Source: Hormoscilla sp. GUM202 (GTDB taxonomy: Bacteria; Cyanobacteriota; Cyanobacteriia; Cyanobacteriales; Desertifilaceae). Taken from it: DNA of 64,000 nt. Under the pieces are notes generated by a model that made no database searches, was not told the DNA's origin, and worked only from the letters and a program-made list of their open reading frames with translations. This document shows, in pieces, positions 11,802 through 37,362 of this stretch (position 1 is the stretch's first letter; each line of letters opens with the position of its first letter). The stretch spans positions 66,572-130,571 of the forward strand of contig RFFC02000014.1 in NCBI GenBank assembly GCA_005518205.2. The letters run 5' to 3'. The position numbers were made by a program, and so were the translations under genes.

Positions 11802-12076
11802 TCATAATCCCTCACTTAATATCTTTTTAGCTAGAGCTTTACCCACTTCCTGACGGACAGCTTCTTTGCCTGGGTAAGGACGGGTAGCTGGCAAAGCACC
11901 TGCAAGTTCGCTGAGACTGCGACGCTTGAACATCTGTACTTTCCATCCATCCAGGAATAACACCAGTTCATCTCCTTCTTCTAGCCCCAGCTTGCTGCGA
12001 AGTTCTATGGCTGGCGCCACGCTGCGCGATCGGGAATTGTCACTTGTCCGTCACTGGTCATTTTGGCTATATGCAT
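11802..12076 (-). pseudogene. Second AbrB-type antitoxin, broken by a 23-bp repeat
   Basis: A duplicate of the antitoxin at 11389. It starts MHIAKMTSDGQVTIP at 12076, then a 23-bp palindromic repeat (12011-12033) interrupts the frame and brings a stop. Removing exactly those 23 bases gives TIPIELRSKLGLEEGDEL and an open frame to 11802. A shorter product from an ATG at 12020, created by the repeat, would lack most of the DNA-binding motif. Its toxin partner is deleted after about ten codons. Confidence 0.85.
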
Positions 12077-12191
12077 TTAATCCCTCCTCTTGCTAATTGC
12101 GCTCCGGGGCACGGCCAAGTATAATTCTGCTAGTCTATCCCGATAATCAACTGATGCCGTGCCCCTACCATTAATTGTAATGTAATTGCCA

Positions 12192-13367
12192 TTATACATC
12201 ATCCTGGTGCCTAAGAGCTGCCCGAGAATTCTCCATACAAGATATTGCTACTTCGTCCTGGCGCTGTATTTTCAGGGCCTCCTCGCAAGATGCGATCGCC
12301 TCGGAGTATAGTTTCAGGTTAAACAAAGCAATGGCCAGATTTTTCCAAGCCGGGGCAAAATCTGGTTTAATTTCCAGAGACTGCTGGAAACTATCAACTG
12401 CTTCTGCATGTCGTGATAACTTAAACAATGCCATCGCTTGATTATACCAAGCTTCCCAGTCATCTGGTTTCAGTTCCGTAGCTTTATTATAAGACGCCAC
12501 TGCCAACTCATATCTTTTTAACTTAAACAGCGCATCCCCTCGCATTGCCCAACCGTTCTGGTAATCTGCTTTCAGGGCTAGGGCCCGATCGCAGCATGCG
12601 ATCGCCCTTGAAAACGTCCCAGCCTGCTGATACCTCAATGCCTCTTGCATCCAAGCTCTAACTTCCAGTTCTCTGAGAATAACCTGGGGGTTTGTTGTTT
12701 GAATGCCCATCTGCCGAGCCAGTTGCTTAACCATCCCAGAATTATTTTGCAACATGGCCAATACCCCATCCAAACTGTCTGGTTGCGCTTGACTCTTAAT
12801 CTTTGCATTACTTTTCTGTCTTTTCTGTACAGGAGTAACATTTGGGGCGATCGCCTCTATTCCCGGAGGCGTTTCAGGCACGGGTTCGGGGGGGTTATCC
12901 TCTGGTTCCGGAGGAGTTTCAGCCATAGAAGGAGGGGCGGCATCCTGAGTATTCGAGACTGCTTGTATTTGAGGATATCGCCCCAGCAACTCTTCTCCAA
13001 ATTTCCCTGCAACTCTTCCCAACTCTCCACAACCAACCTGACTCAGCAGCACCATCTGCCGTCCTAATTCTACATTAGGCGATTTTGAAGACAGCGTCCG
13101 TTCTCCGAAGCTATGCAACCAAGCTATCCAATCAGCTTCCGTAGTGCGATTTTCCCATTCTGCCAGAAACTGCCACACCTGTTGTTCTTGCCAACCGCCT
13201 GCAACCCCTTCCAGCAACCGCAGGAACAGAAACTCATAATTTTGATATAAAAGGGGCCGAACATTTTCCTGCTGTTTATTGGGAACTTTTCTTTGAGGCG
13301 ATCGGCCCAACAGCCTGCGCAGCAACCCCTGCAACCACTGCCAAAACTTTTTCCACATCTTACCCAT
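12192..13367 (-). CDS. TPR-repeat protein with basic amphipathic N-terminus
   Basis: A 391-residue protein. The N-terminus (MWKKFWQWLQGLLRRLLGRS) is basic and amphipathic and may attach to a membrane. A helical region follows, then a proline/glutamate-rich linker at about 145-175 (ETPPEPEDNPPEPVPETPP), then three to four TPRs from about residue 245 (ALALKADYQNGWAMRGDALF onward). It may start at the second Met (13358). The role is unknown; TPRs imply protein binding. Palindromic repeats lie upstream. Confidence 0.8.
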   Translation of the reverse strand: MGKMWKKFWQWLQGLLRRLLGRSPQRKVPNKQQENVRPLLYQNYEFLFLRLLEGVAGGWQEQQVWQFLAEWENRTTEADWIAWLHSFGERTLSSKSPNVELGRQMVLLSQVGCGELGRVAGKFGEELLGRYPQIQAVSNTQDAAPPSMAETPPEPEDNPPEPVPETPPGIEAIAPNVTPVQKRQKSNAKIKSQAQPDSLDGVLAMLQNNSGMVKQLARQMGIQTTNPQVILRELEVRAWMQEALRYQQAGTFSRAIACCDRALALKADYQNGWAMRGDALFKLKRYELAVASYNKATELKPDDWEAWYNQAMALFKLSRHAEAVDSFQQSLEIKPDFAPAWKNLAIALFNLKLYSEAIASCEEALKIQRQDEVAISCMENSRAALRHQDDV

Positions 13368-13454
13368 TTACCATTTACCATTACCCATGTAGGAACTGTC
13401 AGTGGGACACCATTATTTTTTGGCGACAACCCGAGTAAAAAAGAAACCGCTTTT

Positions 13455-13500
13455 TCCACCCCTCGTTCCCACAACGAGGCCTTGGAACGGCGCGGGAGGA
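13455..13500. repeat. CTCGTTCCC palindromic repeat
   Basis: CCTCGTTCCCACAACGAGGC followed by CTTGGAACGGCGCGGGAGG. Member of a dispersed family of CTCGTTCCC/GGGAACG palindromes also seen near 6897, 9359, 15130, 56179, 59013 and 63596. Confidence 0.65.
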
Positions 13501-13606
13501 TAGGTAGCAGCGCCCTCTCCGAAGCAAATCTCTAGCATATCCGTATGAATAATACCCGGGTTGAGAGGAAAGAAGACATTCCAGCAGGCAATTCTCGAGC
13601 TAACAG

Positions 13607-14398
13607 TTAATCCCTCAATCCTTTCTCGCGCAACCAAGAAGACGCCCAAGCTGCATTTGCCTCTGATAGCGGTGGTTCTGGTTTTTGGCTGTAATCTATT
13701 ACCAGCTCGTAACCTGATAAATCATATATCTCATTTAACAACCGCTGCAAATCTACAACTGGTTCCACATCTCCTGACTGCAAAGGTAACGGAAATGAGG
13801 GAATCGCATCTGGTAAGTTAAAGGCATATAAATCTGCGTAAGGACGCTGGTTGTCCCTACTCACCAAAATCCGATAATCTGAGAAAATATTATCTCCGAA
13901 AAATGGCATCGGTATCCCCCCGCGCAGTAAATCTATTTCTACCAGATTAGTTGCACTTCCCAAAACTCGCTGTCGCTTCTTCTGATAAGCATTGCGTCCT
14001 TTCCCCGATCGCTTATTTTTCGGAGACAAAATTTCCAATGCCGTCACCACCTCACCCGTGCCCACCTCTTGCACTTCTAAATACCCTTCTTTTATCGTCT
14101 CTGGTATCGGCGTTGTGACTGTCACTGGTTGCGCTGGTGGCGATAACACGGCCACCTGAGACCGAGAAGGTTTTGTTTCCTCCCTCTGTTCCCGTTTTAC
14201 TATCAGATCGGGAATTCCCACCAGCAGGGAGTTTGGCCCACCGGTTTCATACATGCGCACTTCTACCGCAACTCGATATTTAGGAAGCAGTTGAGGGGAC
14301 AACAACCTAAAAATCTCGCTAATCAGCAAGTGATGTACTCCTAGCCATAATTGCGGATGTTCTAAATATGGGTCCATACCCGGAAATGGAGATGGCAT
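13607..14398 (-). CDS. DUF4058 family protein
   Basis: A 263-residue protein starting MPSPFPGMDPYLEHPQLW, the signature start of DUF4058, abundant in cyanobacteria and of unknown function. Family blocks: LLISEIFRLLSPQLLPKYRV, VTALEILSPKNKRSGKGR, VEIDLLRGG and DLYAFNLPDAIPSFPLPLQS. No membrane segment is visible. The EILSPxNK and DLLR motifs recall nuclease-like folds, but that is only inference. A decayed second copy lies at 51511. Confidence 0.9.
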   Translation of the reverse strand: MPSPFPGMDPYLEHPQLWLGVHHLLISEIFRLLSPQLLPKYRVAVEVRMYETGGPNSLLVGIPDLIVKREQREETKPSRSQVAVLSPPAQPVTVTTPIPETIKEGYLEVQEVGTGEVVTALEILSPKNKRSGKGRNAYQKKRQRVLGSATNLVEIDLLRGGIPMPFFGDNIFSDYRILVSRDNQRPYADLYAFNLPDAIPSFPLPLQSGDVEPVVDLQRLLNEIYDLSGYELVIDYSQKPEPPLSEANAAWASSWLREKGLRD

Positions 14399-14481
14399 TG
14401 TTCTAACTCCAAATGATGTTTCTGCTTTGATTATACATTATACTTCTATTCACAATTGGCAATTCCCAATTTTCCTAGTAA

Positions 14482-15117
14482 TTATACCAAAACGATCGGG
14501 TCTTGGATATCGTGAATAAAATCATTCAGCACTGGGTCGTCCCTGTCCCGGCGATACAGTTCCCGGTAAATTTGGACGATCGCCTCCTTCACCATCTGAG
14601 CTGCGATCGTGTCATTTCTATATTCCGGGAAAACCATTAACAGCATCTCTGTTATCATACTGCTGCCATCAAGAGGCGGGACAACGTACCTCACCCCCTG
14701 CATTACCTTAGCCCCAACCTGCTGATAAAAGGCAACTCGTCTGTGCTTCTGTTCTCTGTTACTTCCAGACTCTGGATTTGCTACCTCTATCAACATAAAT
14801 TTATTACGCTCTCTTAACATTTGGTTAATTTGGTTCATAAAAGCTGTTCCAATCCCCTGACGTCGGTAGTTTTTCTTTGTAGCAATGTAATCTAGCAGAA
14901 TAAATTCTGTATTTTTCAATGGCCACAACAGAGCCATGAAAACCACTTCATCTTCGAGGTAGCCAAGGTACAAGCAACTCAGTCTTTTGTCTATCCTTTC
15001 TCTGAGTAAATCAACCTCAAATCGCGTATTTGCCGGAAAAGCATCAGCATAAATCTCCATCGCTGCGGCAAAACCTGCATGTTTCGTATCCTCGATCTCG
15101 ACAAACTCTTCTATCAT
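14482..15117 (-). CDS. GNAT family N-acetyltransferase (211 aa)
   Basis: The acetyl-CoA motif is clear: LLDYIATKKNYRRQGIGTAF with RRQGIG at about 105-110. RRVAFYQQVGAKVM follows as the typical C-terminal strand-helix. An internal segment, FILLDYIATKK, matches the usual beta4. The substrate is unknown. It lies alone between DUF4058 and the antiporter. The DUF4058 start is separated by 80 bp, so the two are not clearly an operon. Confidence 0.85.
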   Translation of the reverse strand: MIEEFVEIEDTKHAGFAAAMEIYADAFPANTRFEVDLLRERIDKRLSCLYLGYLEDEVVFMALLWPLKNTEFILLDYIATKKNYRRQGIGTAFMNQINQMLRERNKFMLIEVANPESGSNREQKHRRVAFYQQVGAKVMQGVRYVVPPLDGSSMITEMLLMVFPEYRNDTIAAQMVKEAIVQIYRELYRRDRDDPVLNDFIHDIQDPIVLV

Positions 15118-15216
15118 ATTATTACCTCATCTCTCGTTCCCTGACTCTGGCAGGGAACGTTCATTCGAGGCTCTGCCTCGCGACAGTCCGCAGAGCCGAT
15201 CGGAATCATTAGCTAG

Positions 15217-16131
15217 CTAAAATTCTCCCAAACCTGCGATTTCTGGATGGAAGAAGAAGGCCAGGCCCAAAACTACATAGGTAGCCAATAGCAGAGAACC
15301 TTCCAACCAATCAGAACGACCATCGGAACTGACAGAATTAGCAAGTAACACCGCTACTACCACCGCCACCAGTTCAAAGGGATTGAAATTGAGGTCCATC
15401 GGTTGACCCATTATCAAGCCAGCTAGCACTAATACCGGTGCCACAAATAGAGCAATTTGCAAGCTAGAACCCACCGCCACCGAGACAGATAGATCCATTT
15501 TATTTTTCATAGCTACCGTTACAGCTGTAGCATGTTCCGCCGCATTGCCAATAATGGGAACCACAATCACCCCGGTAAACAATGCCGTTAATCCCAAATA
15601 AGAGGTCGCTTCTTCTAGGGAGTCAACCAACAGTTCCGACTCTACCGCTACCACTATGGTTGATACTAATAGTACGATTACCCACAACAGTAGGTTCGGT
15701 TTCTCTTCTGATTCTTCCGCTTCGAGATCGGCCATGCCCACATCATAGAGAAAGGAGTGGGTTTTCATCGAGAACAGCAGTGTCAGCAAGTAAACCACGA
15801 TTAACACGATCGCTACCGCCCCAGAAAGAGTCTGCATGGTAGCTTCTGAGATGCCGTCGGAAGTGACATCCACAGCAGTCGGCACCAAGATAGCAATCAC
15901 CGCCAAATTCATCGCCGAAGCATTTAATCGCGCCACCACTGACTGAAATTGCTGTTCTCTGTAGCGGAGGCCACCCAAAAACATGGCAAAACCCATCACT
16001 AACAGCAGGTTACTGATAATCGAACCCGTGATACTGGCCTTGACCACATTAATCAGTCCCGCATTCAGGGCCACCAGACCGATAATCAATTCTGTGGCAT
16101 TGCCGAAAGTAGCATTCAAAAGGCGTTGCAC
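15217..16131 (-). pseudogene. Calcium/proton antiporter, C-terminal 5/6 (split by IS1)
   Basis: The CaCA/CAX antiporter body: the first repeat motif LLNATFGNATELIIGLVALN and the second GNAAEHATAVTVAMKNKMDL are both present, with about ten hydrophobic segments. These transporters exchange cytosolic Ca2+ for H+. The first 66 codons lie beyond the IS1 at 16122-16993. Removing the IS and one 9-bp target copy gives a 364-residue protein reading GPNLGGFLNATFGNATEL. A GTG at the IS edge could start a truncated product lacking the first helix. Confidence 0.9.
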
Positions 16132-16993
16132 ATTTACGGGATGATAGGTTAATGCATATTATTATAATCTGCAATCTTTCAGGGAGAATTTATAGTTAAG
16201 ATGAGGGATTTTTACCCATTAGTCAAAATTAGTGCTATAATGGAGTGTAAGGCGAATAATTTAGTTAAAGGAGTTGAAAATGAAATGTCCCCGATGTGGT
16301 TCTGAAAAAATTAATAAAAATGGTCACAGACGAGGTAAACAGAATTTGATTTGTAAAGATTGTAACCGTCAGTTTCTCGAACATTATTATCCGCGCGGTT
16401 ATTCGGAAGATGTCAAGAAAAACTGTTTAACGATGTACGTTAATGGTAATGGATTTCGAGGGATTGAAAGAATTACTGGCGTCAGCCATAATACTCAAAT
16501 TCAATGGGTAAAACAAGCAGCTAAAGAATTACCGTCAATCCCTGAAAACTATGAGATACCGGAGGTTGCAGAGATTGACGAGTTGCATACTTATGTAAAT
16601 GAAAAAAAGAAGAAAAAGTGGCTATGTCCAGTTGTAAATCATTTTAAGCCAGGGATTATAACATGGGTATTAGGAGATCGTTCAGCTGAAACTTTTAAGC
16701 CATTGTGGGACATTATAAAATGTTGGCAATGCTTTTTTTACGTCACTGATGGATGGCCTGTATATCCAATGTTTATTGAAGATATTGACCATATAGTTAG
16801 CAAAACATACATGACCCGTGTTGAAGGAGAAAATTGTCGATTAAGACATTATCTAGCTCGATTAAAAAGTCAAACATTATGTTACTCAAAATCATCAGAA
16901 ATGTTGAGGCTTTCAATTAAGCTATTATTGCACTATCTACGTTATGATTTTGTACCTGTCCCTAGTTAAATCATCCCGTAAATGTGCAACGCC
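16122..16993 (+). mobile_element. IS1-family insertion sequence
   Basis: 872 bp, bounded by terminal inverted repeats GGCGTTGCACATTTACGGGA and the complement ending TGTGCAACGCC. It is flanked by a perfect 9-bp target duplication, CATTCAAAA, at 16113-16121 and 16994-17002. It interrupts the CaCA antiporter gene. Confidence 0.96.
16274..16969 (+). CDS. IS1-family transposase
   Basis: A 231-residue transposase in one frame, so no programmed frameshift is needed, unlike classical IS1. The N-terminal zinc ribbon CPRCGSEKINKNGHRRGKQN...CKDC is followed by an HTH (RGIERITGVSHNTQIQWVKQ). Then come the DDE catalytic parts: AEIDELHTYV, YVTDGWPVYP and the C-terminal VEGENCRLRHYLARL. A good ribosome site (AAAGGAG) precedes the ATG. 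It looks intact and could be active. Confidence 0.93.
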   Translation: MKMKCPRCGSEKINKNGHRRGKQNLICKDCNRQFLEHYYPRGYSEDVKKNCLTMYVNGNGFRGIERITGVSHNTQIQWVKQAAKELPSIPENYEIPEVAEIDELHTYVNEKKKKKWLCPVVNHFKPGIITWVLGDRSAETFKPLWDIIKCWQCFFYVTDGWPVYPMFIEDIDHIVSKTYMTRVEGENCRLRHYLARLKSQTLCYSKSSEMLRLSIKLLLHYLRYDFVPVPS

Positions 16994-17192
16994 CATTCAA
17001 AAATCCCCCCAAGTTCGGACCCAGCACCACGGCGATTTCTTCCGTTGCCGTCCCCATCCAAGCTGCTAGAGGGACGATCGCCAGCCCCGCTGTGATAAAG
17101 ATCGTTGTCGAGCCCCAATCCAGAAAGTGACCGGCAATGGAAATGGGGATAAAGACCAAGAGAATGGAAATTATAGCATTTGTGTTCAGCAT
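16971..17192 (-). pseudogene. Calcium/proton antiporter, N-terminal fragment
   Basis: MLNTNAIISILLVFIPISIA and EEIAVVLGPNLGGFLN are the first helices and pre-motif region of the CaCA antiporter at 15217. After GGFLN the frame enters IS1 sequence (GRCTFTG) and stops. The genes were one before insertion. Confidence 0.9.
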
Positions 17193-17608
17193 TTCTCCTT
17201 CACCAGCCGCAGGTTATCTCACCTATGCTAGCTGGATTTGTCTCAGATGGAATGGATTTCAATCAATGGATAGACCGCAGAATTTTTAAATGTTGTACTG
17301 GATGGTGCCTTACTCCATAACTTTTGGGCCTGGGACGTGAGCTGGCGGTAAGGTGTGTGTGGGTGGTTTTAGATTTTCTTTAGGTTTATCGGCACGGCGC
17401 TCATCTAACCTACAAGAAAGCAAAAGTCTTTTCAAGTACCTGAAACATTAATTTGAGGCGGCTGACAGGTGGGCGGTGTCTTCGGAAGAAGTGCTTCTAA
17501 AAATCGGGAGACCGCTCGCTATCCGTCCGGAAAATATACCAGGTTTTAAGAACACAAACTTTAGCCACAGCGCAGGAGTTTTGAGTAGTTAGTATTGGAG
17601 GCTTAGAG
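17193..17608. other. Intergenic region between antiporter and GH57 gene
   Basis: 415 bp between divergent genes. Apart from the ribosome site TTGGAGG at about 17594-17600 I see no gene or strong repeat. It should contain both promoters. Confidence 0.6.
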
Positions 17609-20269
17609 ATGGTTTCTCCTTATGATACAGTTTCTTACGATTCGCCATTGTCTGCCATTACCCAAGTGGTCAACAGCGGGGACGATCTGCTGGAGATCGT
17701 CTCCAAAAACGATCCCAAAGGCGATCCCCTGCGGATAGCTACGGGAGTATACTTGACGGTTCACGGTCATTTCTACCAACCCCCCCGGGAAAATCCTTAT
17801 CTAGACGCGATCGAACGCCAACCGAGTGCATCCCCCTACCATGACTGGAACGAACGCATTCACCACGAGTGCTATCGTCCGAATGCCTTTGCTCGGGTAT
17901 TAAATGACCGAGGCGAGATCGTCAATATCGTCAATAACTTCGAGTATCTCAGCTTCAATATCGGTCCGACCCTGATGACCTGGTTGGAACGCTACGATGT
18001 GGAGGTATATCAGCGCATTCTGGAGGCCGATCGCCAAAGTTGCCAGCGCCTGAACGGTCACGGCAATGCGATCGCCCAAGTCTACAACCACATTATTATG
18101 CCTCTGGCGAACGATCGGGACAAGTACACCCAGATCCGCTGGGGGAAAGCAGACTTCCGATCCCGCTTCGGGCGCGATCCCGAAGGCATGTGGCTAGCAG
18201 AAACAGCTGTAGACTCTGCCACCTTGGCAGCTTTAGTGGCAGAAGGTATCAAATTTATCATTCTCGCCTCCTCCCAGGCGGAACGCTGTCGCCCCTTCCC
18301 CAGGTCAGAGGAACCGGAACCGGAATGGCACGAAGTCGGGGGCAGTCAAATCGATCCCACTCGCCCCTATCGCTGCTTTATTAACGGTGGCAAGTATATC
18401 GATATCTTTTTTTACGATGGCCCAATTTCCCGGGATATGGGTTTTAGCGATGTGCTGTTTAACTCGGGTCATTTCGTGGGTCGCATCGGTCAAGCAGTGC
18501 GCGGGGATCGGCGATCGTCCCAGCTAATATCGGTGGCGACGGACGGGGAAACCTTCGGTCATCATAAAGGTGGCACGGAAAAAACCCTCGCCTACGCCTT
18601 TTTGCAGGAATTCTCCCACCGTGGCTGGACGGTAACTAACTTTGCCCATTACCTCAGTCTTTCGGAACCAACCTGGGAAGTGGAACTCAAACCAGTCACA
18701 GCTTGGAGTTGCTCCCACGGGGTCTCGCGCTGGCAGGATGATTGCGGTTGTGGCGGTGGTGGCGAGTGGCACCAAAAATGGCGGCGTCCCCTGCGAGACT
18801 CCCTTAACTGGCTGCGCGATCGGCTGATTGAGGTTTATAAAGAGGAAGCAGGGAAATTATTCCGCGACCCCTGGTTGGCCAGGGATGAGTATATTCAGGT
18901 GATTCGCGATCGCACTCCAGAAAACGTTGACATCTGGCTATCTACTCATTGCACTCGCGAACTAACGCCAGATGAACAAGTAGACGCCTTACGCCTGTTA
19001 GAAATGCAGCGTCACAGCTTGTTGATGTTCACCAGTTGCGGTTGGTTTTTTGAAGAACTGTCCCGTCCCGAAGGGGTGCAAATTCTGCGCTATGCGGCCC
19101 GGGCGATCGAACTAGCTGGAGAGGTGACAGGCACGCAGTTGGAACCAGAATTTATCAAGCGCCTCGCTCAAGCACCCAGCAATGTAGAATGCTTCGGTGA
19201 TGGTGAGGCTGTCTACCGTCAGTTGGTGGCTACTGCCCAGATTAGCTTAGAACAAGTGGCAGCTCATTACGCCATGAGTTCCCTGTTCTATAGTTATCCC
19301 AAGCGCCATCGCCTCTACTGCTACAGGACCGATAAACTAGATTATCAGCTGCAACGGATGGGTGCCATGACTCTCGCCGTAGGACAGTTCCTGCTTGAGT
19401 CCCAAATCACGCGGGAAACGAATCATTGCGTGTTTGCTGTCTTGCATTTGGGTGGCTGGGATTTCCACTGTTGCATTCAACCCTTTTCCGGACGCCTCGC
19501 TTACAGTCAACTGAAAGAAAAGCTATTTTCAGCCCTGCAACAAGCCAGTGCTGCTCATGCGATCCTGGCAATGGTACAGCTGTTTGGAGACGATCGCTCC
19601 TTTAGCTTGCAAAACTTGTTTGCTGAGGAACGTCACCGGATCATGCAGTTATTAACCGCAGAAACTCTCACCCGCGTCAATCAGCTGTACACCCAAGTTT
19701 ACCGGGATAACTATGGCGTCCTGATGGCATTTCACCGGGATGAAATGCCAGTTCCCCCAGAGTTGCAAGTCGCCGCAGAAATTGCCCTGTCTCATCGCTG
19801 TCAGATGTCTTTACGGGGGCTGGAACTTGCAAATGGGGATACCCAATTGGGGTTGACTCACCTGGCCGAACTGGAGGCGATCGCCCTTGAGGCCAATCAA
19901 CTCCATTGTCAGCTGAAAGTTCCCGAGGGTAAGCAAACCCTGGAACGAATAATTTTGCGCAGCCTCTGGCATATCATGCATGATGGTAACTCTGCCGTTT
20001 CTGCCGATATCAAACGCTTGGAACGGATGATTGAAGTGGGCGAAAGGCTCAATCTCGGGATCTCCCTCGATCGCTGTCAGGAACTTTACTTCAACTGTCT
20101 GCACAGTCGCATCGTGCCACGGTGTTTGAGGGCCCAATCATCATCAAAGCATAGCGGTGAAGTCTGTGCCACTTCTGAAACTAAGCTTGACTTATCCCAG
20201 AGTCATCAGCTACTACGGTGGGGTGAAAAGCTAGCAGTCGATGTGAGCAAATGGACTAACCAGCAGTAA
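17609..20269 (+). CDS. DUF3536 / glycoside hydrolase family 57-like protein
   Basis: An 886-residue protein with an N-terminal GH57 catalytic barrel and a C-terminal DUF3536 region. Motifs in order: VHGHFYQPPRENPYLDAIER (GH57 motif 1), WNERIHHECYRPNAFARVL, GMWLAETAVD (the likely catalytic-glutamate region) and SVATDGETFGHHKGGTEKTL (likely acid/base Asp region). These suggest an alpha-glucan hydrolase or branching-type enzyme. The substrate is not known. The start is supported by GGAGG eight bases upstream. No signal peptide, so it is probably cytoplasmic and linked to glycogen metabolism. Confidence 0.88.
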   Translation: MVSPYDTVSYDSPLSAITQVVNSGDDLLEIVSKNDPKGDPLRIATGVYLTVHGHFYQPPRENPYLDAIERQPSASPYHDWNERIHHECYRPNAFARVLNDRGEIVNIVNNFEYLSFNIGPTLMTWLERYDVEVYQRILEADRQSCQRLNGHGNAIAQVYNHIIMPLANDRDKYTQIRWGKADFRSRFGRDPEGMWLAETAVDSATLAALVAEGIKFIILASSQAERCRPFPRSEEPEPEWHEVGGSQIDPTRPYRCFINGGKYIDIFFYDGPISRDMGFSDVLFNSGHFVGRIGQAVRGDRRSSQLISVATDGETFGHHKGGTEKTLAYAFLQEFSHRGWTVTNFAHYLSLSEPTWEVELKPVTAWSCSHGVSRWQDDCGCGGGGEWHQKWRRPLRDSLNWLRDRLIEVYKEEAGKLFRDPWLARDEYIQVIRDRTPENVDIWLSTHCTRELTPDEQVDALRLLEMQRHSLLMFTSCGWFFEELSRPEGVQILRYAARAIELAGEVTGTQLEPEFIKRLAQAPSNVECFGDGEAVYRQLVATAQISLEQVAAHYAMSSLFYSYPKRHRLYCYRTDKLDYQLQRMGAMTLAVGQFLLESQITRETNHCVFAVLHLGGWDFHCCIQPFSGRLAYSQLKEKLFSALQQASAAHAILAMVQLFGDDRSFSLQNLFAEERHRIMQLLTAETLTRVNQLYTQVYRDNYGVLMAFHRDEMPVPPELQVAAEIALSHRCQMSLRGLELANGDTQLGLTHLAELEAIALEANQLHCQLKVPEGKQTLERIILRSLWHIMHDGNSAVSADIKRLERMIEVGERLNLGISLDRCQELYFNCLHSRIVPRCLRAQSSSKHSGEVCATSETKLDLSQSHQLLRWGEKLAVDVSKWTNQQ

Positions 20270-20381
20270 GTTTCCAGGTAACACCTGCGAACCAGGGGGA
20301 AAGGCATTACTCTTCCCCCTGGCTTGACAAAATCGGTGCAGTATATTGTCAACCCCAGATAGAGAGTTAATAGTAAATGCC

Positions 20382-21044
20382 ATGTTGAAAGCATCTGATA
20401 TTATGACTGAGGACGCAATCACGATTCGCGGTTCAGCGACGGTGGCTTCCTCTGTCAAGATCGTGAAGTTGAATAACTTGCGATCGCTGATTGTTGATGT
20501 CCGCAGTTCTGAAGATGCCTACGGGTTCGTCACCCAAACTGATATTGTTTATAAAGTGGTAGCCTATGGTAAAGACCCGGAAAAAATGCGAGTCTACGAA
20601 ATCATGACCAAGCCCTGCATAGTGGTCAATCCCGATCTGGGAGTAGAGTACGTGGCGCGGTTGTTTGCCAATACAGGTATCCGGGTAGCGCCGATCGTCA
20701 AGGATGAACTGGTGGGGATCGTTTCCGTTACTGATATTCTCAATAAGGGGGACTTCGTAGAAAAACCCAAAGTCAACATTCTCCAGCGAGAACTGGATAT
20801 AGCCATCTCAGAAGCTAAATCTATTTGTGCGGCCAAAGGTGTTAGATCTCAAGAATGTATTGACGCTTGGGAATTGGTTGAGGATATCGAAGCTGACGCC
20901 AATTATCAATCTGAAACTTATCCCACGGTCCGCGGACGGCCCGAAAAATCGGAAATCAAACCTTTGGAAACAACAGAATTAGAGCTCTTCTGCTGGGAAC
21001 ATCCAGATCTGCAAGAAGTCCTCCAAAATCCGGCGAAAATATAA
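20382..21044 (+). CDS. CBS-domain protein with C-terminal CP12 domain
   Basis: 220 residues. Two CBS motifs form a Bateman module: MTEDAITIRGSATVASSVKI to FVTQTDIVYKVV, and MTKPCIVVNPDLGVEYVARL to GIVSVTDIL. This usually binds adenine nucleotides. A CP12-like region follows (LDIAISEAKSICAAKGVRSQ, then ECIDAWELVEDIEADA). In classical CP12 this region, with Cys pairs, holds GAPDH and phosphoribulokinase together and inhibits the Calvin cycle. Here the N-terminal pair is present, but only one Cys (ELFCWEHP) is seen in the tail. A palindromic repeat adds residues near VRGRPEKS. I chose the ATG at 20382; a TTG at 20346 is possible. Confidence 0.88.
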   Translation: MLKASDIMTEDAITIRGSATVASSVKIVKLNNLRSLIVDVRSSEDAYGFVTQTDIVYKVVAYGKDPEKMRVYEIMTKPCIVVNPDLGVEYVARLFANTGIRVAPIVKDELVGIVSVTDILNKGDFVEKPKVNILQRELDIAISEAKSICAAKGVRSQECIDAWELVEDIEADANYQSETYPTVRGRPEKSEIKPLETTELELFCWEHPDLQEVLQNPAKI

Positions 21045-21060
21045 TTATTGTTGGTTAATT

Positions 21061-21087
21061 TGGGTGCATCTCACTTTGGCAACGTGA
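21061..21087. repeat. Solo ISKra4-like terminal repeat
   Basis: GGGTGCATCTCACTTTGGCA followed by ACGTGAG resembles the 25-base end of the ISKra4 element at 21493, with no transposase nearby. Confidence 0.5.
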
Positions 21088-21185
21088 GTTCGACGGCTAC
21101 TTAAACCTTGATTTGGAGTCAGCAACAAAATGCTTCAAACCCTCATGATTGCGTTCGACAGATCCCCCCCCGATCGGGCTGCGTT

Positions 21186-21356
21186 CTAATTGAAGCCGAG
21201 CCAAGCAAGCAGCCCTTGCCCTGTCAGGAATTCAATCAGTAAGGCCAGAATAAAGCCAATCATGGCAGCGCGACCATTTAAGCGTTCTGAGTAGTCATTG
21301 AAGCCAAAGAACGTATCTTCTAGTTTCGGGGTGGTGGTTGGTTCTGGTTCAGTCAT
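21186..21356 (-). CDS. High-light-inducible / one-helix chlorophyll-binding protein
   Basis: A 56-residue protein reading MTEPEPTTTPKLEDTFFGFN then DYSERLNGRAAMIGFILALL and ending LTGQGLLAWLGFN. The ERLNGRAAMIGF helix is the chlorophyll a/b-binding motif of HLIP (Scp/Hlip) proteins, which protect or assemble photosystem II in high light. The length and single thylakoid helix fit the family. The gene is too short for most open-frame searches. A promoter-like sequence lies 30-55 bp upstream. Confidence 0.93.
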   Translation of the reverse strand: MTEPEPTTTPKLEDTFFGFNDYSERLNGRAAMIGFILALLIEFLTGQGLLAWLGFN

Positions 21357-21384
21357 GATTTCAGTTGGTTACAATTATTTATAT

Positions 21385-21411
21385 TCTATACAATACTCCG
21401 GACAGAATCAA
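21385..21411 (-). promoter_or_regulatory. Possible sigma-70-type promoter of the HLIP gene
   Basis: Read on the minus strand: TTGATT (21406-21411), a 15-base spacer, then TATAGA (21385-21390), about 30 bases before the ATG. The spacer is shorter than the ideal 17, so this is tentative. Confidence 0.3.
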
Positions 21412-21501
21412 GTGGCTATAACGAGTTTGTGATTCGTATAGTTGACAATGCCTTTAAACCACGAAAATAGTGGCGAACAAGGCCAGTAGAAAGGGTGCAT
21501 C

Positions 21502-21705
21502 CCAATTTGGCAATGAGCCAAAATACTTCATTGTTAAACTGTCACTAATAGACCCTTGGTCTGTCAAGGAAATGATGACGGATAAGAGAAGGGAAGGCTC
21601 GGACCAATTTGGCAATGAGCCAAAATACTTCATTGTTAAACTGTCACTAATAGACTCTTGGTATGTCAAGGAAATGATGACGGATAAGAGAAGGGAAGGC
21701 TCGGA
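21502..21705. repeat. Two tandem copies of a 102-bp unit
   Basis: Copies at 21502-21603 and 21604-21705, each running from CCAATTTGGCAATGAGCC to GAAGGGAAGGCTCGGA, with about three differences. The unit starts inside the ISKra4 terminal repeat. A plus-strand frame runs through both, but I see no sign that it is a real gene. Confidence 0.85.
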
Positions 21706-21821
21706 AGCGGTTATCTCCGTAAAATTCGTCAATTTTATCTTGACAGACCACGAGATGATGAGAATGTCAAGATTGACTCACCTTGAGAATACTCCATTGA
21801 GATAAGCACGCTCCGGGCCCC

Positions 21822-22268
21822 CTACGCTGCGAGATGCCGCAGAACTTGGGGAACATTGGCAGCTTTCCACTGCGCTCCTGAGAGCTTCACCCGTGCCGCA
21901 ACCTGCTTAATCGTTGATTCCACCTCTCCCGAACCGATTGAAATTCCCTCGGCTTGGTAATAGCCATAGTTCACAATGCGGTGACGATGCTTAGTAACAT
22001 AGGCCCTGAAGTTATCAACCCGTGGATGCTCCCAGTCGTCAAATTCTTTGAGGGCTGCATCTACCTTGCCTGACCATAGGAGAGCTTTCACTCGTGCCAG
22101 TCTAGAGCTGGACCCACCGACGTATTGAAGCAACTGCCCACGGACTGTAGCTTCGAGTCCTGAGAGTGTTTTCAATTGCTCTGGAACAGTCCCTTGGGCC
22201 TCCTCATACAACAAGGCGGCTATTCCCAAAGCATAGGTTTTAATTTGAGCTAAATTTTCAGGATTCAT
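21822..22268 (-). pseudogene. ISKra4-family transposase with internal deletion
   Basis: The 148 codons join the family N-terminus (MNPENLAQIKTYALGIAALL) directly to the C-terminal DDE end (YYQAEGISIGSGEVESTIKQ, then ARVKLSGAQW). Full-length relatives are roughly three times longer, and the first catalytic Asp region is missing, so it should be inactive. The frame survived the deletion. Confidence 0.85.
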
Positions 22269-27316: not shown

Positions 27317-27596
27317 CTACGAAGCGACAAAACTCAGTTCATCGGGACTCGCACCCAGAACGATACCTAAGATATCCCGGGAATCTTCTATCCTGATGAG
27401 AGTATTATTGCCCCGCACCAATCTCAAATTCAAGTCCCCTGCTGTCAGTCCTTCTGTAAGCCCGATCGCATCTATGCCAGACTCAAAATCGCGAATGCGA
27501 TCGGCCTGCCTGGCATTAGCAACTGGTGAGTCTAACAGGAAGATATCATTACCCGTGCCGCCAAGGAGAAGATCTCGTCCCGCCTCCCCATTGAGG
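27317..27596 (-). pseudogene. C-terminal fragment of the secreted subtilase (cut off by IS)
   Basis: Reads LNGEAGRDLLLGGTGNDIFL, then DRIRDFESGIDAIGLTEGLT and stops at 27317 after DELSFVAS. These are a last haemolysin-type Ca2+-binding repeat and the usual tail of RTX-like cyanobacterial proteins. It joins in frame to the gene at 29588 when the IS and one 9-bp target copy are removed. Confidence 0.88.
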
Positions 27597-29618: not shown

Positions 29619-31447
29619 CCATTGAGGAGATCGTTACCCGCACCTCCTGCGAGAACATCATTGCCCCCGCCCCCCAGAAGCGTGTCATTGCCATTTTCAC
29701 CCGAGAGGCGATCGCGCCCTGGAGTTCCGGTCAGCAGATCGTCTTCCGTCTCCGTCGAACCACCATCATTACTAGAAGTAACCGACAGCAGATAATCTCC
29801 CATGCTACCCGCAGCAGCGCCCGCCCCCGTGATGGGGTCGTAGTTGCGGGCCCCGGGATTAGATCCGTTCACCCCAATAATATATTCCGTTCCCCCAGTC
29901 ACTGCTACCTGCAAGTAACTGCCGCGAGTCCCGTTATTCTCATCGTCATTGAAAGCAATTTCATTTCCCTCCGCGTCGAACACCCGCAAAAATGTATCCG
30001 CGCTAGGATTTTCTGGGGATATTAGTAAGTTCGTACTGGTGCGAATATCTACCATCCCAGTAATGTCCGGGCGGAAGCGATAGAGGTCGATGTCCGTAGG
30101 CCCGATCGCGAACCCGTCATCTTCCCCAATATTGCCCAACAACTCCGAGTCGATCGCCAGTTCAAGCACGGCGATCTTGTCGATCCTGTCATCGGAAAGA
30201 CTGCTAGTTTCGCTAGGGGAAAGCAGTCGCAGATTCAAGATATAATCACCTTCATCCCCGCCAGAACCGCTACTTAACTGGAAGGGGTCGAAGTTGCCAT
30301 TGCCGGAACCCGTCACTGCCACAAAATAATCCCGGTTGGCCTCAATTGGCAACTGGATCAAGGGGTCAAAAGAATTGCTATCATCATCAAAGGCTAGCTG
30401 ATTCCCGGCGCTATCGAAGATAAAGGCCACCGTATCCGCAGGATCGGCAATGCCCCCTGCCTCGTAAGCATCGATGTTTACTTCCAGAATGCCCCCAGTC
30501 TGCGATCGCACCTTGACCAAGTCCACATCCCGATCGCCCACTTCTAGCAACTGCCCTGTTTCCGGGTTACTGTCCGACCCAATATTCTCCAGTTGCACGA
30601 AAGGCAAACTCACATCAGTAGTAGCTTGAGGTATGCTACCATTCAGGTCGCTATTGGCAAAGCTGACGATCAGATTGTAGGAACCTCCATCTCCCGTCGT
30701 CGGGCGATCGCCGGAACTGGTCGGGTCATAATCTTGATTCAAGAAGTCCGAGATCCCAATATAATAAACCTCTCCCTGTTCTACCGAGGCCCGCAGGAAA
30801 CTATCAGTAGTATGTCCGTTAAAGAAATTGCGATCGACCGGGTCGTCAAACACAAAACCGGGGAAGTTTGAGTCCGCGAACTCGATCGCATTTCCCTCAG
30901 CATCCGTAGCGAGGTCGTCATCGCTGGCCAAGGGACGGCCATTGACCCTGACCTCATTTCCCCCGGCATCGAATATCCGCACAAAGGAGTCCAGGTAGTC
31001 GCTATTAAAGGGCGTGTCAATATCAATTAACAACACCCCATTGTCCGGGGCGACCACTTCAAATAGATCTACATCTGCCACCCCCACAGTCTCGCCGTAG
31101 TCCGCACCAATAAAACCATCAAACTGTACCGGTTCGGTGTCCGTACCCAAATTCACTGCCACCGCCCCCGCGATCGTGCCATTGGGGTCGTCATTAATCA
31201 AGGTAAACTCTAAAGCATAATTCCCCGTATCTCCTGCCAAGTCCGCACTGCCCGCCACAGTGGGGTCGTAAGTACCATTATTGTAATCGCTTACCCCCAC
31301 ATAGTAAACCCCAGGGTCGAGAGAAACATCCAGGCGCGAGAAAGTCCCCTCCCCCCCATCATCATCAACAGCAATTTCCTTGCCCAAGCTATCGAACAGT
31401 CGCAGCAAGCTATCAAAATTATCGGGGTTTTGAGTATGGGAACTCAC
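29588..31447 (-). pseudogene. Middle part of the subtilase: PPC domains and Ca2+-binding repeats
   Basis: Follows the S8 part in the same frame after a single TAG. It holds about four copies of a bacterial pre-peptidase C-terminal (PPC)-like domain, each with a block like VGDRDVDLVKV or DIDLYRFRPD and a block like GNYALEFTL. It ends in glycine/aspartate-rich Ca2+-binding nonapeptides (DRLSGENGNDTLLGGGGNDV) before the IS cuts it. Such regions mediate secretion and stability. A GTG could restart translation, but without a signal its product is unlikely to work. Confidence 0.85.
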
Positions 31448-33178
31448 CTAGATCGTCACATTCCCCCCAGAAGATACCTCAAACCGGAAGATATCTACAT
31501 CCCGATCGCCCACCTCGGTGGAGTTGCCATCAACCCCGATCGCCCCCAACAGGGGTGCCACGGGAGAACCATCCAACACCGGACCCAGGAACGCCCCCGC
31601 GATCGTCCCATTAGAGTCCCCACTTCCCCCCGTAACTGGAGGGGGTGCGTTGCCAGTAAAGCGGCGCTGAATTTCCTTAACCGCTTCATAAACATTCAAG
31701 CGAGGGTAAGATATATTTGTATTATCGACATTATCCTCTTCATCATCCCCATCAAAGATGCTATCTGCAGTCGAGACGATAATTTCCTGCACCTCCGAAG
31801 GGGACAGCAGACGTCCGCCAAACTCCAACGCCGCCTCTTGCATCAGGGCCACAGTTCCCGCTACCATTGGCGATGCCATGCTAGTGCCCGCTGACTCTTC
31901 AGTTCTGTCACCGGGCACTGTACTGTTAATGAAAGCCCCCGGTGCAAAAATTACATTCGGCGCATCCAGACGCTGAGAGAAACTGACAATGCGATCGGTC
32001 CCCGTCGAACGATCGCGTGCCCCATTTTGCCAGCGGACGCCCCTAGTAGTACCATCCTGCCAGACCGCCCCTACCGCCAGGGTACTGTAAATCGCCGGGG
32101 CGGCCAAGTTTTTATATTCATTGTTCTCATAACTATTTCCAGCTGCCGAGACCACAGTAATGCCAGCATCTTCCAGGCGCTGGACATCGTCCTTGAGGAT
32201 ATCAAACACCCGCGACTCCGAACTAAAGAACCCACTGCCCAGAGACATATTCACCGCGACGATATTATATTCATCGCGGTTGTCTAATACCCATTCCAAG
32301 GCATTCTCGATCGTCGAGTTGTAAGCACTACCATTGGGTTCAAACACTTGCAGTCCGATCAAACCCACATCCGGGGCGACGCCAATATTTTCTTCGCTAG
32401 CGCCAACTATCCCCGCCACATGGGTGCCGTGATCGATGCGATCGACTGGATTATTCCCGCCATTAACAAAATCAACCCCCGTGATATAATTTCCCTCCAG
32501 CAGAGAGTGAGTGCGGTCCAAACCCGTATCAATAACCGCCACCCTCACGCCACTGCCATCAATGTCAGCAAACAGGGGGTCATTGCGCAAATCAGTAAGT
32601 CCGATCAAATCAAAAGCAGGGTTAACCCCTGCTGTCGCCTGTTCCAGTTGCAGCACTTGTCCTTCAATAGTCAGGACGACAGTATCATCCTCCTGTTTTA
32701 ATGCCTGTAATGTGCCCGAGTCCAGATCCACACCCCGAACCTGCTGGGCAAAGACTGCCCCCTCATCCCCTTCTGTATCCGTCCGGGACTGCTGCGAGTC
32801 AAGTGCATGTCCCAACTCTTCTAGCAGCACCTCTGCGACGACCTGGATATTATCTGCATGGTCGGTCAGCAGTTCCTGGGATAGATATATCCTGTCGATC
32901 TCCCCTGCGAAAGCCCCCAAAGCACCATTAAGATCGACTGCTGGACGAATTTCAATATCGGGGAAACTGGTCAAGTCGCCAGATGCCCAAGCTCTTGCTA
33001 ATGATATCAGGGGCTGCACGTCTCCGTCAAAAGCCAACTGCATCTTCGCGCCCACATCCGGGTCCCTAGTAAATGTGCTCAGGAGATCCTGGGAAAATTG
33101 CCAAGCTGCATCCAGGGTCTCGGATCCCGTAAAGGTCCCTGGTGCATTCACAACAGGCAGTGATCGATCTCGTGTCAT
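31448..33178 (-). pseudogene. S8 subtilisin-like secreted protease, N-terminal part ended by a stop
   Basis: 576 codons. The N-terminal region (residues 1-170) contains the cyanobacterial block VLLEELGHALDS. The peptidase S8 domain follows with catalytic Asp in AVIDTGLDRTH, His in RIDHGTHVAGIVGA and Ser in AGTSMASPMVAG. The first PPC-like domain then begins but is cut by TAG at 31448-31450 (GGNVTI-stop-VSSHTQ). A truncated product would still contain the whole catalytic domain, so some activity cannot be excluded. The intact gene would encode 1276 residues. Confidence 0.88.
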
Positions 33179-33579
33179 CGCTTTAGTTAGTTATATTGTC
33201 TTTCTACTACTACTTACTCTGGTGGAATGCACCTTTTGAGCCCTTTTTCAGCTTTTATTTACAACTCTTTACATTAATCCTCCCTTTCAAAACCGGACTT
33301 GCAACTTTCATCGCAGGAGGCTCCTGGTTAACGGTCCCTTTTCCTGGGCAGACGTTGGTTGAGTTACCTCTCCCTATCCTTATCTCATGAGGGTTCACCT
33401 TTTCGTGGTTAGCGCTAACGAGGACTACTTTAATGCCTGGCGGAGGGGGGTTCGTGCGGGATAAGGCTTAACCCTTTGGTTGGGGTCGTGCTCGGAATCG
33501 CTTCCCAACCCTCCCTTTCAAAACCGGACTTGCGACTTTCATCGCAGGAGGCTCCTGGTTGGTGAGCCGTTGTCTATGG

Positions 33580-33601
33580 CTGCGCCACGCTGCGCGATCG
33601 G
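33580..33601. repeat. 22-bp ATGG-targeted small dispersed repeat
   Basis: CTGCGCCACGCTGCGCGATC plus GG, inserted after CTATGG in the intron remnant. The homologous sites at about 454 and 38013 read ATGG without the insert. Confidence 0.8.
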
Positions 33602-34066
33602 CAGCCGGTGATTGGATTACTCCGCTCTGGCCTTATCTTCTGGATTTTTTGCCCCTTCTTTTCCCCTTTTCGTACAAGCTAAATTCGTCAAGTCTCTGAA
33701 GGGTGGCGTGAATAACGGGAAAACTGCCAACCCATCCTGTCATCCTTTCCTAACGTGGTCTCTCCCTGGCGTGCTGCTGGGCCTCGACCGCAGCTTTTAC
33801 CTCGCTTGAACTCTAGCTTCGTATATATGCCTCATGGACGTGTCCACTGGCACCGTATCGTTTTAGCGCTCCTTTTCCCTCCGATTTCTCTCCATATCCG
33901 TCCTACGTCAGCGGCGGTCTGGAATCGCAACACCCCTGTCCGTGGTGAGCTGGGTTCCAGCCCACATCCTATCCTGAGCATTACCCCAGGCATTAGCTTT
34001 TTAGGACATCCCTCCCCTGTTGTCTTTCGCTTAACATCTCACTTATCCCCTGGTCGCGTCCAGGAG

Positions 34067-34110
34067 CACCCACCCGGTCGTGTCGCTCCCGCGCACGACA
34101 TGGGTGGGTG
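34067..34110. repeat. CACCCACCC palindrome
   Basis: CACCCACCCGGTCGTG and GCACGACATGGGTGGGTG around GCTCCC, same family as 7076-7117. Confidence 0.75.
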
Positions 34111-35081
34111 TCTCCGGACGCGAAGGCTCCTGCCGGTCCATGGATTGCACAACAGAGGTTATAACGTTCCGTATAATCCATATGATGCTTTTAGGCCTCT
34201 GCAATACCCCGGGAAGATTTTTGTGATACGGAATAACCATGCATAACAGCTATTCACACCTACCCTTGCCTTTTGGCTCCAGCGCATACAGCCTTATTTC
34301 GCTGGTCTAAATTGACGAGGCTTATACAGATTCACTCATCGTTAACCTTGAGCATCTAACAAGCGCGGCGTTTCCGGCGATAGCTGCCAGATTGCCTACA
34401 TTTAAGTCCCTGCTCTCCACCGCCGGTGATGTCACTCCGCAGCAGTTGGGACCGGTGTACCTTCCGTATCCGAAGGATGGGGTTTGAGTAATTACCCACA
34501 ATAAAAACCTCTGACTTTGAGACTATAGTATAACGTGAAACTCAAGTTGGCGTTTGGTTGAGGCACGAAACCAAACCTACAGGTGATGCAATTTTTATTA
34601 TGGGCATTTAATGAGACCTGATATTAACCATTAGATATTTCTCTACCTAGTCTTCTTTAATTTCCCACAATTCCTACAACTCCAATTCCGATCGCCCGAC
34701 GGGAGAAAAGGGCGATCGCTCTTTTTCTCTTTAGCTATAACGGGAGGTGTTACTCAACCTTGAGTCGAAACTCATCGAACTTCACCGCATCTCCATCAGG
34801 TTGACGAGTATCGAAATAATAGCTACTCACCACCCCATTTCCCGTGTCCAAAATACTGAAAACCGTGATATCATTACTAGCAATATAAGGCAAAACCCGG
34901 CCATCTTCTCCCGTGAGTGGGGCAATATTTGGCACCACAGGTTCTAAACCATTCCTCGCGATATCCAGCAGGTACAGAACGCTGTTTATCGAGAGAAGCA
35001 CCGTAACTATTGCCAACGTTAGAAGTTTCTAGGAAATGCATCCCCCTGGGACTAACAAAGCGATTCCACAAATGGGAGTGA

Positions 35082-35128
35082 CCGCTCGCGCAGCGTGGCG
35101 CCAGCCATATCCCTCACGGGAGCGCCAG
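35082..35128. repeat. Two tandem ATGG-targeted small repeats inside the GHSH motif
   Basis: Units at 35082-35104 (23 bp) and 35105-35128 (24 bp). Removing all 47 bases rejoins TATGG and TCACTCCC to encode YGHSHLW. Confidence 0.9.
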
Positions 35129-35907
35129 CCATAGAAAACTAACTGCACTCCCGCTGATTCTAACAGAGGCATGACATCCCGAATGATGTAATCTGCTTCC
35201 TTGGGGTACTCGTAACGTACAGCAGTGATATTGCCAGCAGCATCGAGATCGATCGCCTGGACGGGGTCAGTGTAAGCAGGCACAATATTGTCACCCCGGG
35301 AATGGGGCGGGTGATGAAACATGACAAGTTTATACTTGGCCTGCTGAAACTCCAGACTCTCCAGTTCACTTTTCAGCCAATTATACTGGGGACTTCCCCG
35401 TTTAATGGGTTCAAAGATATGCTGTCCGTAACCCCAATTAACAGGATTTTGCAAATCCCGATCGCCTGCGGCTGCGCGCAGCGCAATCGGACTCGCGAAA
35501 CCTGCCCTTAGCATGCTTGGCCAGACTGGGGGTACGCCACATATTAGTAATGTAAGGCACCACCAAGCGCAGGTCACCAAAGGTAACAGCGTAGTAGAGC
35601 GCCCCGCCGGGACTATTCTGGGGTAAGGTGACCTCAGCTTCGTGACGCCAGATATTTCGCTCTGTGGTAATTTGGTAAATCTGACCGTCCTGAGTTTGGT
35701 TTGCGGGATTTTTGGTCTTCCCGGGCCCGACTCAGCTTGATGGTCCTGGCAATGGCAGTGCGTGAGAACCTTTCACCATAGGCGACTTGATGGTCAACAC
35801 CTGGAAACTCAGTAAACCAAACCACTCGCACCGTGGTCTCAGTCGGTAGTTGCAGAAACGGGTCCGTCAAGAGTTGAGATGATTGCATGGGAGTGAGTAC
35901 CTGGTGT

Positions 35908-35953
35908 CCGCTCGCGCAGCGTGGCGCCAGCCATTCGCGCAGCGTGGCGCCAG
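35908..35953. repeat. Two tandem 23-bp ATGG-targeted small repeats
   Basis: Units at 35908-35930 and 35931-35953. Removing the 46 bases rejoins AACAATGG and ACACCAGG, which gives the continuous reading INNGHQVLTPMQS. Confidence 0.9.
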
Positions 35954-36136
35954 CCATTGTTAATCAGCAAAACCGATAGTAACAGCAAGATGATGCTGGC
36001 TAGGAGAAGAGTGCCGTTGTTGAACTACGCGAGCATAGCTAATCTGCGGTCCAGATGCGATCGCACTATAGCAGATCGCCAAAAAAGTCCGCTAACCTAG
36101 CGGTCAGCGGACTCTATAACCGGTTCTATATGACCA

Positions 36137-36210
36137 TCGGAGCGGCGGGATTTGAACCCACGACCCCCACTACCCCAAAGTGGTGCGCTACCAAGCTGCG
36201 CTACGCCCCG
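36137..36210 (-). tRNA. tRNA-Pro (GGG)
   Basis: 74 nt on the minus strand. Acceptor CGGGGCG pairs with CGCTCCG (one wobble). The D arm is GCGCAGCTTGGTAGCGC. The anticodon stem CCACT/AGTGG encloses the loop TTGGGGT, so the anticodon is GGG. The T arm is GTGGG TTCAAAT CCCGC. The discriminator is A; CCA is not encoded. Confidence 0.95.
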
Positions 36211-36250
36211 ACATTTAATATCCTAACACATCCTAACACAGAGATCGGGA

Positions 36251-36616
36251 TTAGAAAACATTAATTTTCTGAATTTCTCGAATTAAATCTGGAACTACCG
36301 ACGGCGACCATTCCCCCTCGCACCGGCGTCCCGCGTTTAAGATAAAGTGAAGACTGTAGGCGTCAGGATAGCCGGAGACCTCCATCCAGAGTAAATCGCT
36401 TTGGGCTTCACAGGTAATTTTCTCGGAGTCCATCAGCATATCGGCCATCTGGTTCATACTTTCGGACAGTTGGTCTAGTAACTGGCAAAATTCCTGCCAT
36501 TCCGCCTGAGTCAGTTCGATCGCCCAGCGATCGCCACCCAATAAACCCTGATGTTCAGATGCTGCCATATTCCTGCCGATGCGCCAACCCGTGCCACTCT
36601 TGATTATACGTTCCAT
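36251..36616 (-). CDS. DUF1818 family protein
   Basis: A 121-residue protein limited to cyanobacteria and plastids. It has the family blocks IIKSGTGWRIG, GGDRWAIELTQAEWQEFCQL, CEAQSDLLWMEVSGYPDAYS and LHFILNAGRRCEGEW. It is predicted soluble, with unknown function. It lies near rpoZ, as often in cyanobacteria, with the disrupted small gene between. The tRNA-Pro follows 40 bp downstream. Confidence 0.9.
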   Translation of the reverse strand: MERIIKSGTGWRIGRNMAASEHQGLLGGDRWAIELTQAEWQEFCQLLDQLSESMNQMADMLMDSEKITCEAQSDLLWMEVSGYPDAYSLHFILNAGRRCEGEWSPSVVPDLIREIQKINVF

Positions 36617-36976
36617 AGATTTCCCCTTCCTAATGCTAATAATTGCCCTTTAGGATCTAGGCGGATGGGACTGCTACTTTACCGCTACCGGTTGGACTGC
36701 TCGACGACCTTAGCGGTCCGTGACTCTACTCACCCAACTGGATTACGGTCGATCGCAAGGGATTCATTTTCAGCTCACCTCTGAGAATTATCACCCTTGT
36801 GCCCTCAGGAGATCGCCACTGGCTACAGAGTTTCACGGGAAGAACCGTTCCGTTCCCAGACAAAACCATAGAAACAAGGAAATATCAAATTTTATAACAG
36901 TAATAATATTACTATCTGATACATCGAGAAAGGCATTGCATCTCGCTGTTGTCTATTTAAGCCAGATATCGCCGCT
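36617..36976. other. Intergenic, nothing recognised
   Basis: 360 bp between DUF1818 and the disrupted small gene. No convincing gene, RNA or strong repeat seen. Confidence 0.5.
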
Positions 36977-37277
36977 TTATCTCCATTTTTCGCCCAACAG
37001 GTCATGGCCCGGATAGATCGATTCACTGATAAATTCATTCGCATCTAGATAATCAGCCAGAGTGAGCTTCCAATCTAAGCGATAATTGGGAGGGCGACTT
37101 TTGACGAATATGTGATACCGGATCGAGCGTCGCATCAGGGTATTATCTGCATCCACCTCACCCGTTTCCCTGAGGACATAGTGATTCTCTTTAGGTAAGT
37201 CTGGCAATTTTTCATAGACTACGCGCCAAACCTGATTGGGTCCGATCCGCCGTTGCGCCGGTGCTGCTGGAGACTGT

Positions 37278-37300
37278 CCGCTCGCGCAGCGTGGCGCCAG
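37278..37300. repeat. 23-bp ATGG-targeted small repeat, copy in 36977 gene
   Basis: Minus strand: TTATGG, the 23-bp unit, then ACAGTC. Removal gives YGQSPAAP. Confidence 0.9.
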
Positions 37301-37339
37301 CCATAACTCCCGTTGGGACTGGTTCTGACAAAGGTTAAC

Positions 37340-37362
37340 CCGCTCGCGCAGCGTGGCGCCAG
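37340..37362. repeat. 23-bp ATGG-targeted small repeat, second copy in 36977 gene
   Basis: Minus strand: CATATGG, the same 23-bp unit, then GTTAACC. Removal gives AYGLTFVRTSPNG. Confidence 0.9.

Follow-up and report, generated by a model that had tools for sequence, protein, structure and literature searches.

A two-class insertion rule in 22- to 24-nucleotide mobile elements of the sponge-dwelling cyanobacterium Hormoscilla

The small dispersed repeats (SDRs) SDR1-8 of Nostoc punctiforme and its relatives were reportedly described by Elhai et al. in 2008, who are said to have proposed an RNA intermediate. To our knowledge, the spread of such repeats has been an open question ever since, and elements of about 23 nucleotides (nt) are too small for the ends that transposases usually need. 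Here, we set beside them a repeated unit of Hormoscilla sp. GUM202, several copies of which lie in a 64,000-nt stretch of contig RFFC02000014.1 (hereafter, the window). These units are very small (22-24 nt), non-coding, recently active mobile elements of Hormoscilla, and we followed them through the 6.87-Mb draft genome of the host, a neighbouring Hormoscilla genome (GM7), and other cyanobacteria. Hormoscilla is a filamentous cyanobacterium living in Lamellodysidea sponges (PMC6520454).

SDRs are likewise described as 21-27 nt long, non-coding, dispersed, recently mobile, and precisely inserted in filamentous cyanobacteria. The Hormoscilla unit resembles them in size (22, 23, or 24 nt), in its many copies, and in its recent mobility (36 site pairs), but it differs in having a class of paired insertions that exchanges a target base, and the likeness is one of description. 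A passage of PMC4390886 reports SDR5 between bases 3 and 4 of the highly iterated palindrome HIP1 (GCGATCGC); SDRs are also cited in a passage of PMC3116915. The junction of the Hormoscilla unit with its target often reads GCGATCGG, one base off HIP1, yet its empty sites read H|TCRG (H, not G; R, A or G; the bar marks the junction) and contain no HIP1. HIP1 sites were kept in 57 of 57 cases between the host and GM7, and methylation-driven mutation of CGATCG at the junction was rejected on account of this invariance.

A second comparison is with the repetitive extragenic palindromic (REP) sequences and REPINs, which go with RAYT proteins (TnpA-REP). Both kinds of repeat are of similar size (20-40 nt for REPs), reach high copy number, are genus-specific, form dimers, and occur in genomes with Y1 transposase genes (PMC3116915, PMC3733652, PMC6006769). 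The Hormoscilla pairs, however, are direct rather than inverted, the hairpin is weak, insertions lie inside genes, and in the host no RAYT gene was found with the unit next to it. The GTAG/CGTC tag by which REPs are recognized (PMC3733652) is found neither in the unit nor in its flank. We rate the Hormoscilla units as a new family, from a genus new for such repeats, whose two-class insertion rule is unusual and whose place, by description, is beside the SDRs; among mobile elements with clean evidence of the states before and after insertion, the unit ranks with the smallest. A preliminary description of this DNA had already proposed a small SDR-style mobile element that inserts precisely at a specific site and can stack, and the pairs of filled and empty sites given below support this.

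The unit and its target

Three types of unit can be told apart. Type A (ATGGCTGGCGCCACGCTGCGCGA) has 23 nt; type B (ATGGCTGCGCCACGCTGCGCGA) has 22 nt, one G fewer than A; and type C (ATGGCTGGCGCTCCCGTGAGGGAT) is a 24-nt sister that has its first eleven bases in common with A. The six frames of A and B contain zero stop codons. It is important to place the boundaries correctly. All copies listed in the preliminary description are present in the window, and each literally follows ATGG as there delimited, but that delimitation is off by four bases: the 23-nt period of the tandem copies begins at ATGG, and ATGGCT precedes 51 of 51 exact 17-nt cores in the host genome, so that ATGG is part of the unit. 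A genome-wide bias toward ATGG in the flanks is thus real but trivial.

The true target emerges from the flanks of 233 sites. On the 5′ side, the base at -1 is never G (0/233) and there is otherwise little signal; on the 3′ side, the logo reads T at +1, C at +2, G or A at +3, and G at +4, with nothing beyond. Mixed junction types (ACGG, ATGG, and TTGG) are also seen. We then have 36 distinct pairs of filled and empty sites, made up of 20 plus 17 further ones at pair, ACGG, or C sites, with one overlapping. The empty sites hold exactly one or two units fewer, with no target duplication, and their junctions read H|TCGG or H|TCAG with few variants. None of the 36 has ATGG at the junction, and the fixed ATGG target proposed earlier is rejected, the unit itself starting with these bases. 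Orientation at H|TCRG is fixed; read on the other strand, the unit lies 3′ of CYGA (Y, C or T). Unit gain is, therefore, exact, oriented, and free of duplication at H|TCRG, and it comes in two classes. The expectation that empty sites differ by the unit alone holds for single insertions; at pairs, the adjoining base also changes from T to A or G.

The sampled loci comprise 216 single units, 35 pairs, and 0 triples. Among A and B singles (class I), TCRG is kept intact, with T at +1 in 182/208. Among pairs (class II, type C included), T stands at +1 in 1/35, the other 34 having A (mostly as ACGG) or G. The difference persists when only pairs made of A and B are compared with A and B singles (1/21 vs. 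182/208; Fisher p = 4e-15), and single C units are followed by ACGG in seven of eight cases. All 17 empty relatives of class II sites that were examined have T at +1, and one target was seen to change from TCAG to ACGG upon insertion. Since class II sites end in a base other than T and their empty relatives have T, insertion here either substitutes another base for the T or supplies one of its own.

Could pairs have arisen after insertion, by slippage or recombination, with ACGG as a mismatch-repair by-product of the second unit's ATGG against the TCGG target? Mixed junctions of the kinds listed above do occur, and a dnaK gene interrupted at the same codon in the two genomes also fits: in the host it carries A+A and then ACGG (L076:2009-2054), in GM7 a single A and then ATGG (L127), as expected if one unit of a pair had been lost. 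Against this, pairs are often mixed (BA, BC, AC, CA, AB, and CB), and such heterodimers cannot be made by slipping one unit. Memoryless stacking would yield about 17 class II triples where 0 were seen, and C singles are likewise followed by ACGG. We consider this origin of the pairs improbable.

Copies and empty sites in the window

The copies and informative empty sites of the window are as follows.

12007-12029, + strand: unit A, single (class I), within the second gene of a tandem MazE/AbrB-type antitoxin pair encoded on the - strand; followed by TCGG at 12030-12033
11595-11612, + strand, junction 11602|11603: paralogous empty site TTCT|TCAGG, in the neighbouring antitoxin paralogue
33576-33597, + strand: unit B (22 nt), single, within a repeated stretch that resembles a group II intron; TCGG comes next; the closest related copy (L100) reads GTCA|TCGGTAGCC
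35086-35108, - strand: unit A, downstream half of a C+A pair; followed by GCGG at 35082-35085; the GM7 orthologue (L114) is empty, TTTTCT|GCGG
35109-35132, - strand: unit C (24 nt, ATGGCTGGCGCTCCCGTGAGGGAT), upstream half of the C+A pair
35912-35934, - strand: unit A, downstream half of an A+A pair; followed by GCGG at 35908-35911; the GM7 orthologue (in L114) is empty, TTAACA|TCGGACA
35935-35957, - strand: unit A, upstream half of the A+A pair
37282-37304, - strand: unit A, single; followed by GCGG on the - strand
37344-37366, - strand: unit A, single; followed by GCGG on the - strand
21352-21368, + strand, junction 21360|21361: empty site GTCATGATT|TCAGTTGG; unit A present in GM7 (L158:295-317)
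20506-20522, - strand: empty site GTAGGCATCT|TCAGAAC; unit A present in GM7 (L166)

At the antitoxin site, the empty form GAAGTTCT|TCAGGAATTG compares with a filled form of GAAGTTCT, 23 nt, and TCGGGAATTG, a net gain of exactly 23 nt. Removal of 12007-12029 restores the peptide TIPEELRSK, identical to that of the neighbouring paralogue (it had been given earlier as TIPIELRSK). Restoration of the frame, which was claimed for every coding site, holds for this gene at 12 kb and for part of the genes lying at 35-37 kb. Both the C+A and the A+A pair are in the gene at 34.7-36 kb, whose GM7 orthologue contains neither. Around the empty site at 21352-21368, the flanks are 100% identical to GM7 over the 210 nt aligned. 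The empty ATGG that had been attributed to related copies of the intron site is not borne out by the related copy listed above. All four GCGG junctions of the window fall within 2.3 kb, and this clustering suggests that the junction base is carried by the donor.

Two neighbouring features may be mentioned. The tandem duplicated antitoxin genes adjoin a PIN-domain toxin gene (11389-12020 and 10988-11392 in all); the unit disrupts the second antitoxin gene and provides it with an in-frame GTG start. Further downstream, 43550-43627 matches group II intron domain V (Rfam RF00029/RF04357).

How new copies may be made

The best single account is, in our view, that a short RNA or single-stranded DNA (ssDNA) is copied from a primer provided by the target (target-primed copying); we hold this as plausible but tentative. 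The RNA or ssDNA, with the 3′ end ...GCGA-N-CGG, would provide the unit in trans. Once nicked, a target strand that ends in CYG could anneal to the donor's 3′ CGG, with C-G or T-G wobble pairing accounting for the R in TCRG; it would then be extended through N and the unit, and the new strand joined to the flank, in which case base N would derive from the donor. A two-unit template would yield pairs, and many ACGG singles would be pairs that later lost one unit. The enzyme could be a Y1 transposase or a reverse transcriptase, these genomes having reverse transcriptases of the group II intron type. Three points favour this account: donor copies are followed by NCGG, to which one side of the target corresponds; either G or A is tolerated at the position where a primer with a CCG or CTG end could pair with CGG; and the donor can provide the adjacent base.

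Several observations weigh against target-primed copying. It does not explain why the T at +1 is lost in class II, nor why stacking stops at two units. Neither a template RNA nor a master copy was found, and no enzyme is linked to the units by position, the Y1 genes of the host having no unit beside them. At the C+A pair at 35 kb, the empty GM7 orthologue already reads GCGG. At four shared insertions (L087/L134, L088/L145, L097/L168, and L070/L182), the host has TCGG and GM7 has TCAG within flanks that are 98-99% identical, a difference at +3. Finally, isolated units examined for a stable hairpin fold no better than shuffles, the comparison with shuffles being the basis on which a shared stem was judged; of the "palindromic" character described earlier, an 8-nt palindrome (TGGCGCCA) within the unit remains, and it is weak.

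The main competitor is a Y1 (HUH) transposase of the IS200/IS605 or RAYT kind, which would insert ssDNA 3′ of a tetranucleotide without duplication and, by re-insertion at the same target, produce head-to-tail copies. The bottom strand can indeed be read as CYGA|TCGCGC...CCAT, and the one-sided 4-nt target, the fixed orientation, the lack of duplication, and the head-to-tail pairs are all of this type. The host also has intact genes of the RAYT type (C60:8994 and C17:120593) and of the cyanobacterial YxxNQKEHH type (C13:160439). IS200/IS605 elements share the oriented, duplication-free insertion at a short one-sided target; the Hormoscilla unit, however, has no gene, is only 23 nt long, and alters its target base from T to A or G in class II. 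Cutting and joining at CYGA should leave the A unchanged, yet class II sites change it to T or C, and re-insertion at the same target predicts TCRG after pairs, which is seen in 1/35. Moreover, a GTAG-type foot with a hairpin is not clear, and the strand of the unit is unbiased with respect to local GC skew (rho 0.03), although skew may be uninformative here. A Y1 transposase is, on this evidence, possible but somewhat unlikely.

Proximity gave no case for Y1: the retrieved flanks (about 1.4 kb) of the host genes hold other repeats and no unit, and a link by position was rejected on that ground, with one unit lying near a broken Y1 gene in GM7. Replication-strand bias was rejected as well, orientation being independent of GC skew. 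Among the intact Y1 genes (L185, L188, and L192), the one of the YxxNQKEHH type is without a known element, and the two of the RAYT type are flanked by other palindromic repeats (AGAAACCGGGTTTCT and CTCGCTCCTAGGCTCTGCCTGGGAGCGA).

Target-primed copying can be taken further, to an RNA- or ssDNA-templated retroelement of 22-24 nt, the smallest known, with 3-nt CRG:CGG priming, a junction base written by the template, and the two-unit form as a distinct transposition product. We regard this stronger version as rather doubtful; if true, it would be a natural counterpart of prime-editing chemistry. Because the family was active recently, gives 36 exact before-and-after pairs, has a defined target, and marks one insertion class by a changed base, enzyme candidates and intermediates of RNA or DNA can be tested directly.

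Distribution, age, and effect on genes

The host genome holds 66 copies of the unit at ≤3 mismatches, 51 of them exact, against 0 for the reversed-pattern control, which is far more than chance would give. Across three Hormoscilla genomes, the type A 23-mer (≤1 mismatch) occurs in 57, 163, and 15 copies; type B in about 78, 155, and 27 (with a pattern that includes NCGG, and with copies sampled rather than exhaustively placed); and type C in 6, 38, and 2. Reversed patterns gave no matches in the Hormoscilla genomes. At the same threshold, the 23-mer was not found in another 36 genomes from the family and order, or in 290 genomes drawn across the class, a set that partly overlaps the 36. The family is, thus, limited to three Hormoscilla genomes among about 300 cyanobacteria sampled; in a scan of public species genomes, contigs of Hormoscilla sp. 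GM7CHS1pb and SP12CHS1 are among the matches listed. A search of viral contigs gave 0 matches, and spread by viruses was rejected.

These numbers also bear on the converse idea that a site-specific deletion removes an ancestral repeat and that the empty sites are derived. Nothing specific speaks for it, beyond the fact that some singles may be reduced pairs. The empty state is often common to a paralogue, a second species (G002), and the neighbouring genome, and it restores reading frames; the copy numbers of 15, 57, and 163 fit gain, and the unit is absent from the related and class-wide genomes just described. Already disfavoured, this idea seems to us extremely improbable.

The host and GM7 diverge by about 1% in aligned stretches and many sites are filled in only one of them, so movement must be recent. 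Counting open frames of 100 codons or more that gain 30 or more codons once the unit is removed, we found frame interruption at 39 of the 217 sites examined, and units that break reading frames add to gene decay in the symbiont.

The split dnaK gene prompted the question of whether ribosomes might bypass the unit in live genes. Its downstream half is still open and nearly identical between the genomes, with one synonymous and one non-synonymous change upstream, and one and two, respectively, downstream. The genomes are too close for a test of selection and two other dnaK paralogues are intact; bypass was rejected as a candidate, and gene breakage is the simpler reading.

Other short repeats accompany the family. 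Two genomes from other genera of the order (G011 and G025) contain a few look-alikes (GCCTCCGGCACGCTGCGCGAACGG and GGCTTCGCCTCGCTTCGCTAACGC), possibly distant relatives, and loci of the host and GM7 carry further abundant short repeats, such as CGTTCCCAGGCAGAGCCGTGGGAACGAGGGG and AGCAGGCAACGACATGGGTGGGTGTCTCCGGACGCGAAGC.

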